Below the pieces are notes generated by a model. That model did not search any database. It was given only the letters and a program-made list of their open reading frames with translations, and was not told the origin of the DNA. Source: an uncultured Clostridia bacterium (GTDB taxonomy: Bacteria > Bacillota > Clostridia > Oscillospirales > Acutalibacteraceae). From it: a stretch of DNA of 64,000 nucleotides. The position numbers were made by a program, and so were the translations under genes. Positions 1 through 2,351 of this stretch are shown in pieces (positions within the stretch are counted from its first letter, which is position 1; each line of letters starts with the position of its first letter). The stretch is taken from assembly GCA_905235625.1 (NCBI GenBank), contig CAJOLX010000016.1, forward strand, positions 1-64,000. The letters are read 5' to 3'.

Positions 1-824
1 GTTACGGGAGCGCCGCCCAGGCTCGATATGGGGTCGTTGGCTTCGCTGCCGTTCATGCTCTCAAAGCCGAAGCCTGCTCCGAACTCAATGCCCTTGACCG
101 CGGGCACCGAAAACAGGGCGTGAGAAAGCATTCCCTCAACAGTGTCAAACCACGGCTCTCCGAGCCCTGCGGGTATGCCCGTAACGGCTGTTTCAAGCTC
201 TCCGCCTACGCTGTCGCCTTTTGCGGCGGCTGACTCTATGACGCTCTTCATCTTTTCCTCGACATCTTTGTCGAGAACGGGGAAAGCGCTGTCGGAGAGT
301 CCGTCCGTTTCGGGAGAAACGGGGTCAAATCGTCTGTCTTTAACAGAGCCTATCGCGGAAATATGAGTTGCGACAGTTATGCCCTTGCTCTCGAGAGCGC
401 TCTGACAAACGGCTCCCGCCGCAACGAGCGCGGCGGTAACCCTGCCGCTGAAATGCCCTCCGCCTCTGTAATCCTGAAAGCCGCGGTATTTTATCTGCGC
501 CGTTAAATCGGCGTGGCCGGGTCTCGCGGTCAGCTTTACGCTGTCATAATCCGACGACCTCACGTCTTCATTCGGTATGATAATGCAAAGCGGAGTGCCC
601 GTTGTGCGGGAATTGAAAACTCCGCTGACTATTTCGTAATTATCCTTTTCGCGCCTTGCGGTGGATATTTTGCCCGCGGGTCTTCTCAGAGCGAGCTTTT
701 TCTCAATATATTCGTCGCTTATTTTTATGCCGGGGGCGAGACCGTCTATAACGCAGCCTATCGCCTTGCCGTGGCTTTCGCCGAAAATGGTGACGCAAAC
801 GCTGTTTCCAAACGTGTTTTTCAA
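1..824 (-). CDS. aroC: Chorismate synthase, C-terminus beyond window edge
   Basis: Converts 5-enolpyruvylshikimate 3-phosphate to chorismate using reduced FMN, the last common step of aromatic amino acid synthesis. I start it at a TTG codon (822-824) preceded by GGGGAGG at 831-837; this gives the N-terminus MKNTFGNSVC followed by the family signature FGESHG near residue 15. RRPAGKIST near residue 50 and GHFSGR further on also match the family. About 274 of the usual 360 or so codons are present and the frame stays open to the left edge, so the gene is cut by the window. It lies 21 nt behind the chorismate mutase-AroB gene and probably shares its attenuated transcript. Confidence 0.95.
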   Translation of the reverse strand, partial: MKNTFGNSVCVTIFGESHGKAIGCVIDGLAPGIKISDEYIEKKLALRRPAGKISTARREKDNYEIVSGVFNSRTTGTPLCIIIPNEDVRSSDYDSVKLTARPGHADLTAQIKYRGFQDYRGGGHFSGRVTAALVAAGAVCQSALESKGITVATHISAIGSVKDRRFDPVSPETDGLSDSAFPVLDKDVEEKMKSVIESAAAKGDSVGGELETAVTGIPAGLGEPWFDTVEGMLSHALFSVPAVKGIEFGAGFGFESMNGSEANDPISSLGGAPV

Positions 825-845: not shown

Positions 846-2135
846 TTATTTTCTGATTATCTCCGCTCTTTCCGAAAGCTCTTCGTTTGTCATTTCTTTT
901 ATTTCGCAGGTGCCTATTTCGCTGCAGATAACTGCGCTCACTTTGCCCGACGAGCCTTTTTTATCGTGGCTGAGGGCTCTCGCGAGCGCCTCTTTGTCAA
1001 ACGAAACGGAAACGGGCAAATTGAGCATTTTAAGCACGGGCAGCAGCCTTTCCCTCACGCTGTCAGAACACATCGGTATCATGCCGAGAGCAACGCACTC
1101 GCCGTGATAAAGCCCGTTTAAATTCTCTTCGCTCTCAACGGCGTGGCCTATCGTGTGGCCGAAATTTAGAATTTTTCTTATGCCCTGCTCCTTTTCGTCC
1201 TGCTCAACGACTCTCTTCTTAAAGAGCAGCGACCTTCTGATAACGGTTTCTATTTCATCGCGGGCTCTGCCGCTTTCAAATATTTCAAACATAACGGGGT
1301 CCGAAATCAGAGCGGCCTTGAGCGCCTCGGCAAGTCCGTTTGAAATTTGCCTTTCAGGCAGAGTCAGCAGGGTGTCGGCATCCGAAATGACCGCCTTCGG
1401 CTGATAAAACGCGCCGACCGTATTTTTAAAAGTATCAAGGTTAACGGCTGTTTTGCCGCCTATTGAGGAATCGACCTGGGAGAGGACGGTGGTGGGAACG
1501 TTGTAAAAATCTATCCCTCTCATATAGGCGGAAGCGGCAAAGCCCGCCAAATCTCCCACAACTCCGCCGCCGACAGCCGTTACGCAGTCTTTTCTCGAAA
1601 AGCCTTTTTCGAGCATGAACGAGAGCAAAGCCTGCCACGTTTCGGGGCTTTTGCTTCTCTCGCCCTGCGGCACCGTGTAAATATAGGGCTCGGCGCACTG
1701 TGAAGCGACTGTTTCGGCGTAAATTGCCGGTACGCCGCTGTCGGTCACTATGAGCGCCTTGCGGTTAAGATCAAGTATCTCTCCCGCTCTTTTGAGAGAG
1801 CCTCTCTCAATGGTTATGTCGTAAGGCTTCTCTCCGGCGTTTACGGTGATTATGGTCTTATCCCTCGCGGTGATAAGGTCTCTTTGATATTTTTTTGACT
1901 GAGTGATGGCGCTTTTTATGAATTCGCCGAAATAAGGCCTTATCTCGTCGTCGCTTATTCTTTCGCAGCTTTTTTCAACTATTTCGCTCTCTCTGCCCGC
2001 GTCCACAACGGGAATGTTGTTGCGGGCTTTGTAGGCGGCAATGTCCTTTACCGCCTGCATGCGCTTTTCAAAAGCGGCGGCAATTTCGTCATCGCACTCG
2101 TTTATTACGGCTCTCGCCCTTTGAAGCTCGTCCAT
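846..2135 (-). CDS. aroB: Fused chorismate mutase / 3-dehydroquinate synthase
   Basis: A 429-residue bifunctional protein. Residues 1-88 look like an all-helical AroQ-type chorismate mutase (EKRMQAVKDIAAYK near 23-36, then DAGRESEIVE), which makes prephenate from chorismate. Residues from about 92 are a full-length 3-dehydroquinate synthase: GGGVVGD at 189-195 (NAD binding), AEALK near 269-273, GHTIGH near 326-331 and YHGE near 343-346 (metal and substrate ligands). The start ATG has GAGGTG 5 nt upstream. The fusion joins an early shikimate step to the first step of the Phe/Tyr branch, which fits the Tyr/Phe leader peptide upstream. AroC follows. The AroB assignment is secure; the mutase domain is assigned from pattern only. 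Confidence 0.93.
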   Translation of the reverse strand: MDELQRARAVINECDDEIAAAFEKRMQAVKDIAAYKARNNIPVVDAGRESEIVEKSCERISDDEIRPYFGEFIKSAITQSKKYQRDLITARDKTIITVNAGEKPYDITIERGSLKRAGEILDLNRKALIVTDSGVPAIYAETVASQCAEPYIYTVPQGERSKSPETWQALLSFMLEKGFSRKDCVTAVGGGVVGDLAGFAASAYMRGIDFYNVPTTVLSQVDSSIGGKTAVNLDTFKNTVGAFYQPKAVISDADTLLTLPERQISNGLAEALKAALISDPVMFEIFESGRARDEIETVIRRSLLFKKRVVEQDEKEQGIRKILNFGHTIGHAVESEENLNGLYHGECVALGMIPMCSDSVRERLLPVLKMLNLPVSVSFDKEALARALSHDKKGSSGKVSAVICSEIGTCEIKEMTNEELSERAEIIRK

Positions 2136-2149
2136 TTGATCACCTCAAA

Positions 2150-2195
2150 ATATCAAAAAATTCCACCGCAGGCATAGCAAAAGCTGCGATGGAAT
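2150..2195 (-). terminator. Attenuator terminator before the aroQ-aroB gene
   Basis: On the minus strand a 12-bp stem (2184-2195 with 2160-2171, one G-U pair) closes a 12-nt loop and runs into a U tract (2155-2160). It ends just upstream of the ribosome site of the aroQ-aroB gene, so it sits inside the 5' untranslated leader and not at an operon end. Its ascending arm (2186-2194) can instead pair over 9 bp with 2241-2249 inside the leader peptide codons, which would form an antiterminator. Confidence 0.85.
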
Positions 2196-2213
2196 AGTGC
2201 ATTAAAGTTGCTG

Positions 2214-2291
2214 TTAAAAAGAAGCAAACCCATTGCGCGGCTCCATCGCCGATATAAAGTAATAATAGTAGTAGTTATTACAAAAATACAT
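2214..2291 (-). CDS. Tyr/Phe-rich attenuator leader peptide (25 aa)
   Basis: A short ORF, ATG at 2289-2291 and TAA at 2214-2216, with AAAGGA about 9 nt upstream. Of 25 residues six are Tyr and four Phe; five Tyr codons are consecutive (residues 7-11: TAC TAC TAT TAT TAC) with Phe on either side (residues 3 and 12). It lies between a strong promoter and the terminator directly before the aroQ-aroB-aroC operon. That is the textbook arrangement of ribosome-mediated attenuation: slow translation of Tyr codons when charged tRNA-Tyr is scarce would leave 2241-2249 free to pair with 2186-2194 and prevent the terminator. The role is inferred from layout; the ORF and structures are directly visible. 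Confidence 0.85.
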   Translation of the reverse strand: MYFCNNYYYYYFISAMEPRNGFASF

Positions 2292-2322
2292 GGTTTTGCT
2301 TCCTTTCTTAATATTTCAAGTT

Positions 2323-2351
2323 ATTTTATTACATAAGGGAAGATTTGTCAA
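2323..2351 (-). promoter_or_regulatory. Sigma-A promoter of the leader peptide / aro operon
   Basis: TTGACA (2346-2351), 17-nt spacer, TAAAAT (2323-2328) on the minus strand. Transcription would start near 2316, about 25 nt before the leader peptide ATG. Confidence 0.85.

Follow-up and report, generated by a model that had tools for sequence, protein, structure and literature searches.

A probable tyrosine-codon attenuator before a fused chorismate mutase::3-dehydroquinate synthase gene in an uncultured clostridium

The window, which is the whole 64,000-nucleotide stretch of DNA that was analysed, carries near its start a short leader on the minus strand, in front of a shikimate pathway gene. 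We consider it very probable that this leader is a ribosome-mediated transcription attenuator. The elements of an attenuator are present in order, leaders of the same kind occur in related genomes, and the two strands that would form the antiterminator change together among relatives of the window's type.

Anatomy of the leader

Reading the minus strand from 2351 to 2135, one meets a sigma-70-type promoter, then a ribosome site and a 25-codon ORF, and finally an intrinsic terminator just ahead of the first gene. The promoter (TTGACA-17-TAAAAT, 2323..2351) has its -35 box at 2351-2346 and its -10 box at 2328-2323, with 11/12 matches to the consensus. Using the strict pattern TTGAC(A/T), 15–19 nt, TA(A/T/C)(A/T)AT, a promoter was found upstream in 6/10 fused-gene relatives checked. 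Some 10 nt upstream of this promoter lies the end of a YdjC-like gene (PF04794, 2361-3272, minus strand). The ribosome-binding site AAGGAAG, read from the sequence, lies at 2299..2305, and the leader ORF at 2214..2291 translates as MYFCNNYYYYYFISAMEPRNGFASF. Its control codons are five consecutive Tyr codons (codons 7–11, 2259..2273) followed by Phe. The 2.06-Mb, 93-contig assembly was scanned for runs of five TAY codons, and the run at 2273-2259 is the only one in the genome.

The antiterminator strand is located within the leader ORF at 2241..2249, where it spans Ala-Met-Glu codons (GCGATGGAG). It is complementary over 9 bp (8 Watson-Crick and one G-U) to the terminator 5' arm at 2186..2194, which is common to the terminator and the antiterminator pairing and with which it co-varies in relatives. 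The duplex of 2249-2241 with 2194-2186 has an energy of -15.1 kcal/mol, matched by 9/1000 shuffles. The terminator hairpin at 2160..2195 (-17.5 kcal/mol) is followed by a U-rich tract at 2159-2152; folded as 2196-2160 it reaches -17.7 kcal/mol, and 3/1000 shuffles were as low. An automated terminator scan of the window reported no terminator, probably because it accepts loops of up to 8 and the leader hairpin has a loop of 9. The 191-nt leader as a whole has a folding z of -4.7, which 0/200 shuffles reach. All the elements that the earlier note had named (the promoter, the ribosome site, the 25-codon ORF with its run of five Tyr codons flanked by Phe, the terminator and the 9-bp alternative pairing) are placed by sequence and folding on the minus strand where the note had them, with the ORF at 2291-2214.

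A classical attenuator combines a short ORF holding a run of end-product codons, an intrinsic terminator, and an antiterminator that competes for the 5' arm of the terminator. By its sequence the leader has the short ORF, the ribosome site and the codon run, Tyr being an end product if the operon includes tyrA, as gene order in the relative UBA1236 and on contig C12 suggests. The intrinsic terminator lies between the ORF and the first gene.

From this arrangement we infer the following course of events. To judge by the -10 box, transcription would start near 2316, with a ribosome translating the leader ORF as it follows RNA polymerase. If charged tRNA-Tyr (perhaps tRNA-Phe too) runs short, the ribosome would stall at codons 7–11 and leave GCGAUGGAG free. 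Free GCGAUGGAG could then capture the terminator 5' arm once it is made, and polymerase would read through into CM::aroB, aroC and presumably aroE::aroK-aroQ-aroA-tyrA-aroF. When Tyr is plentiful, the ribosome would cross the antiterminator strand to the stop codon and the terminator would form.

Operon, relatives and the amino acid sensed

The first gene (846..2135, minus strand) encodes a 429-aa protein in which a type II chorismate mutase is fused to 3-dehydroquinate synthase (CM_2, E 2.5e-15; DHQ_synthase, 7.1e-45; DHQS_C, 3e-31). Behind it is aroC (3..824, minus strand), which encodes chorismate synthase and is cut by the contig end. The genes had been described as aroQ-aroB-aroC; the leader does precede them and aroC does follow, but a single fused ORF, 2135-846, stands for aroQ and aroB. 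On contig C12, the end carries an aroC-like C-terminus, then aroE::aroK, dehydroquinase, aroA (named by reading), tyrA and DAHP synthase. No sequence overlap was found between the window's contig and C12, so a single operon is inferred; gene order suggests that the CM::aroB-aroC operon continues to tyrA and aroF. In UBA1236, the nearest relative among the best 80 of 574 matches (fused protein 69% identical), the fused gene is followed in one run by aroC, aroE::aroK, type II dehydroquinase, aroA, tyrA and DAHP synthase, all confirmed by Pfam except aroC, and a leader of the window's kind stands in front.

The window's fused gene has no prephenate dehydratase. The genome has one further chorismate mutase match, a PheA with mutase and dehydratase domains; its gene starts 30 nt after a transporter gene, which leaves no room for a leader directly before it. 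Chorismate mutase is fused to 3-dehydroquinate synthase, as in the window, in 21 loci among L032-L101 (from the best 80 of 574 matches). Many relatives hold pheA then aroB at the same place, which suggests that the dehydratase domain was lost and the genes were fused.

With the fused protein, 80 loci were found, the best 80 of 574 matches. The region upstream of the operon was scanned for ORFs in 75/80 loci; L040, L069, L078, L102 and L108, with <200 nt upstream, were left out. A ribosome site and an ORF with at least 5 Tyr/Phe in 10 residues were present in 34/75 of these best-matching relatives, compared with 15/1500 dinucleotide shuffles and 15/2453 other windows of the same loci. Raising the threshold to 6 of 10 gave 23/75 relatives, 0/1500 shuffles and 2/2453 other windows. 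The Tyr/Phe-rich leader ORFs that the earlier note had proposed to look for in relatives are thus kept in 34/75 at the threshold used. In most leader loci among these matches the leader precedes pheA-aroB, not the fused gene. Where the genes are separate, it stands before pheA itself or before a gene ahead of pheA, for an aminotransferase or DAHP synthase; Pfam confirmed PheA in the window's genome and L060, and elsewhere it was assigned by tblastn, length and synteny. Among 20 further family members, clear leaders were found in L161, L168, L177 and L180 and a weak candidate in L172; in some of the 20 the stretch examined ends in the tail of the upstream operon gene, so that a leader farther up would be missed.

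An operon kept without Tyr codons had been named as a result that would count against an attenuator. Among the 21 fused-gene loci of the best 80 matches, 12 show a leader ORF containing Tyr with a terminator-like hairpin behind it (weak in L033, L037 and L057), while 9/21 have no such leader within the stretch examined, including L040, whose operon runs off the contig. L043:1-366 has a fused gene and a similar-looking promoter, with no recognisable Tyr/Phe ORF, and possibly carries a decayed leader. In Sarcina sp. DSM 11001 (L062:2440-2625), a Tyr/Phe leader, MTAVRVFNPAYGYYFYFYVSESKRVL, and a terminator-like hairpin are found upstream of pheA.

The ratio Tyr/(Tyr+Phe) is 0.66 in the 13 leaders before the fused gene and 0.41 in the 36 before pheA (leaders before aminotransferase or DAHP synthase genes excluded), with p 1.7e-5, a value that overstates the bias because the peptides are related. 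After crude collapse of lineages to 5 and 9 groups, p was 0.02. A rival reading accepts attenuation but takes Phe, or slower translation in general, as what the leader responds to. Phe residues do flank the window's Tyr run, and the Phe-Tyr-Phe leader AroR of Corynebacterium glutamicum is described in PMC11802643 as responding to Phe but not to Tyr. Against this, the window has five consecutive Tyr codons, the 13 fused-gene leaders pooled contain 49 Tyr and 28 Phe (yet Phe equals or exceeds Tyr in four), and the operon of the nearest relative among the best 80 of 574 matches carries tyrA. We regard a signal other than Tyr as unlikely, though it is the alternative to be taken most seriously.

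Terminators and competing arms across relatives

A terminator-like hairpin of -11 kcal/mol or lower was present in 36/38 leader-bearing regions and in 107/380 shuffles of those regions. Regions with no detected leader had such a hairpin in 17/38 cases, and their shuffles in 80/380. In this comparison the leader-bearing set was listed by hand, loci of the window's own genus were excluded, and L062 was counted as leaderless despite having a leader.

Leaders were sorted into classes A to D by eye, with the sequences already seen. Leaders of the window-type class have, downstream of the aromatic run and still within the ORF, a strand resembling GCGAUGGA, and the terminator 5' arm matches it. The arm pairs are GCGAUGGA/UCCAUCGC (window), GUGAUGGA/UCCACCAC (L064, L071) and GCGGACCG/CGGUCCGC (L177). 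When ten window-type sequences were placed by hand, 70/80 pair cells could pair. Both arms are jointly replaced in L064/L071 and in L177, and 8/10 of the sequences have A-C at pair position 4. The leader and terminator strands of this class thus change together, the covariation that the earlier note had expected if the pairing is real.

The arms were also compared by swapping them among sequences. The mean pairing of own arms was matched by 40/5000 permutations in class A (12 sequences), 18/5000 in class B (8 sequences) and 0/5000 in A+B+D (26 sequences). The swap test failed for class D (2090/5000 permutations) and class C (3374/5000), and a sequence's own terminator arm was its single best partner in only 2/12 (A), 2/8 (B) and 4/26 (A+B+D). 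An antiterminator test was run on 46/50 leader regions, leaving out L032, L035, L038 and L064, where the elements lie too close. By antiterminator-side fold energy, the window fell below 100/100 shuffles, and 18/46 regions reached 5/100 or better. By paired arm bases, 26/100 shuffles reached the window and only 5/46 regions reached 5/100 or better. At the level of sequence, then, a competing antiterminator with compensatory change is found for the window-type leaders, and the class A and B permutations agree; in classes C and D the signal is weak or absent. The Tyr/Phe attenuator put forward in the earlier note is supported by the relatives, the terminators and the joint changes of the arms, with the refinement that it is one of several leader designs.

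An unanchored search for the arm pattern covered 394 genomes of the order and yielded 15 matches, spread over 14 genomes, and 4 with a backward control. CCACCGC, an obligatory part of the pattern, is absent from the window itself. The matches look protein-coding by eye, and this search counts neither for nor against the switch.

A second class of leader before pheA, found in the window's genus and in Ruminococcus, has a conserved RF(F/Y)AGF-like stretch whose RNA is much like CGCUUUUUUGCGGGC (L059, L063, L068, L070, L094, L104, L110, L121-L123, L126-L128, L133 and L161). The arm-pairing tests found no simple antiterminator in this class. A shared RFxAGF stretch in some of its leaders would suit a TnaC-like peptide that arrests the ribosome on sensing a free ligand, the codon run being incidental. 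We think this most improbable for the window, since window-type peptides diverge widely, their recurring features being the aromatic run and, in the majority, AM(D/E)-like codons that make up the RNA pairing strand. It is equally hard to credit a chance short ORF beside an ordinary terminator that serves, for example, the YdjC-like gene: that gene ends close upstream on the same strand and hairpins of terminator strength occur in 17/38 leaderless regions too, but the promoter sits between it and the leader ORF, and the leaders of relatives, the covariation and the shuffle controls disagree.

Equilibrium folding did not reproduce a switch in the window: the terminator was formed at every ribosome position and the antiterminator share was 0.00. 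A few relatives (e.g. L038 and L070) showed a substantial antiterminator share with the ribosome at the aromatic run. Since the terminator is favoured everywhere at equilibrium in the window, antitermination by the proposed attenuator would have to be kinetic, occurring during transcription.

In textbook attenuators the antiterminator strand is hidden under the ribosome once this has reached the stop codon, and the ribosome footprint extends about 17 nt upstream. The stop codon follows the start of the antiterminator strand by 33 nt in the window, L168 and L177, by 27–30 nt in L050 and L099, by 18 nt in L032, L060 and L076, and by 9 nt in L064. With 33 nt against a footprint of about 17 nt, the window agrees less well with the textbook geometry, which does not speak against the mechanism as a whole. 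A ribosome parked at the window's stop codon would not reach far enough to cover the antiterminator strand, although it may block the inner antiterminator helix.

A further stem involves the leader's ribosome site. Its 5' strand at 2296..2307 (minus strand) includes that site, and its 3' strand at 2216..2227, beside the leader stop codon, pairs with 2307-2296. The duplex has an energy of -21.6 kcal/mol, which 0/1000 shuffles reach. Among 12 class A regions the stem was significant in the window (0/500 shuffles), L168 (0/500) and L177 (1/500), and not in the other 9/12 (63 to 334 of 500 shuffles). The L168 stem is in the same place as the window's with other letters, and that of L177 differs somewhat, its 3' strand overlapping the antiterminator strand. 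The three regions with the stem are the three with the 33-nt spacing, a link made post hoc with n=3. In a leader free of ribosomes the stem could mask the ribosome site, and we suggest that it may close the leader once a ribosome has passed.

A wider proposal is offered tentatively, as somewhat less than probable. Oscillospiraceae-type Clostridia may have a new family of Tyr-sensing attenuators, retuned from Phe to Tyr where pheA lost its dehydratase and was fused as CM::AroB, so that one leader governs the shikimate pathway and tyrA. In a distant-stop sub-type (the window and L168), the ribosome-site stem would perform the shut-off that in textbook cases is given by the ribosome at the stop codon.

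Relation to known leaders

Codon-run attenuation by ribosome stalling is well known in E. coli, and in pheL-type and other proteobacterial amino acid attenuators the terminator and antiterminator have a common arm. T-box leaders work by binding tRNA directly. Searches with Rfam amino acid leader families found no match at the gathering score in the window or in 20 related loci. The T-box family (RF00230) had no match in the window at the gathering score, nor in 2120-2365 at E up to 5. The leader itself gave only weak Rfam matches to unrelated families (E 1 to 3.5), and tRNAs were matched elsewhere.

Like the window, the aroR leader of C. glutamicum (Neshat et al. 2014, via PMC11802643 and PMC4046766) is described as a short Phe/Tyr leader peptide upstream of a shikimate operon with ribosome-mediated attenuation; unlike it, aroR is actinobacterial, has Phe-Tyr-Phe only, and precedes a DAHP synthase gene, aroF, as its first gene. 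This comparison is by description only. E. coli pheL-pheA (for pheL, PMC11802643) shares the control-codon run and a downstream chorismate mutase gene, with Phe codons instead of Tyr. In the uORFC-13-1 motif, aroF is preceded by a Phe-containing uORF and a terminator; as described in PMC8632094, the motif is confined to Acholeplasma and environmental sequences, its U run gives at least one Phe, and no Tyr run is described. T-box leaders of Firmicute aromatic genes (PMC2494555) resemble the proposed window leader in sensing tRNA charging and switching a terminator. His-leader attenuators of Firmicutes (PMC2965389 and PMC9413887) have codon-run leader peptides and terminators as well, with His codons and histidine genes in place of the window's; PMC9413887 includes antiterminators and five Eubacteriales species. 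The earlier note called such attenuation an unusual regulatory solution in a Firmicute. As far as these texts go, that holds for the amino acid, the operon and the lineage but not for the mechanism, because leader-peptide attenuation by His codons was already known in Firmicutes.

A literature search, with subscription literature mostly outside its coverage, recognised no Clostridia paper on attenuation by a Tyr or Phe leader of shikimate or pheA operons. The class of mechanism is old and rarely described in this bacterial branch; for Oscillospiraceae-type Clostridia, a leader dominated by Tyr before a shikimate operon looks like a new form of it. If the attenuator is real, it would carry codon-run attenuation into the aromatic biosynthesis of a large clostridial group, of which animal gut metagenomes have supplied many members; Tyr would be the main residue sensed, beside T-boxes in the same genome. 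The leader families found also provide material for asking how codon content tracks operon content.

In the window's genome, trpE (G000:C4:5156-6921; L187, L190) lies 23 nt behind a T-box match with E 1.7e-13, below the Rfam cut-off. With this putative T-box beside the Tyr-run leader, the aromatic pathway of this genome seems to use two kinds of sensor for tRNA charging.
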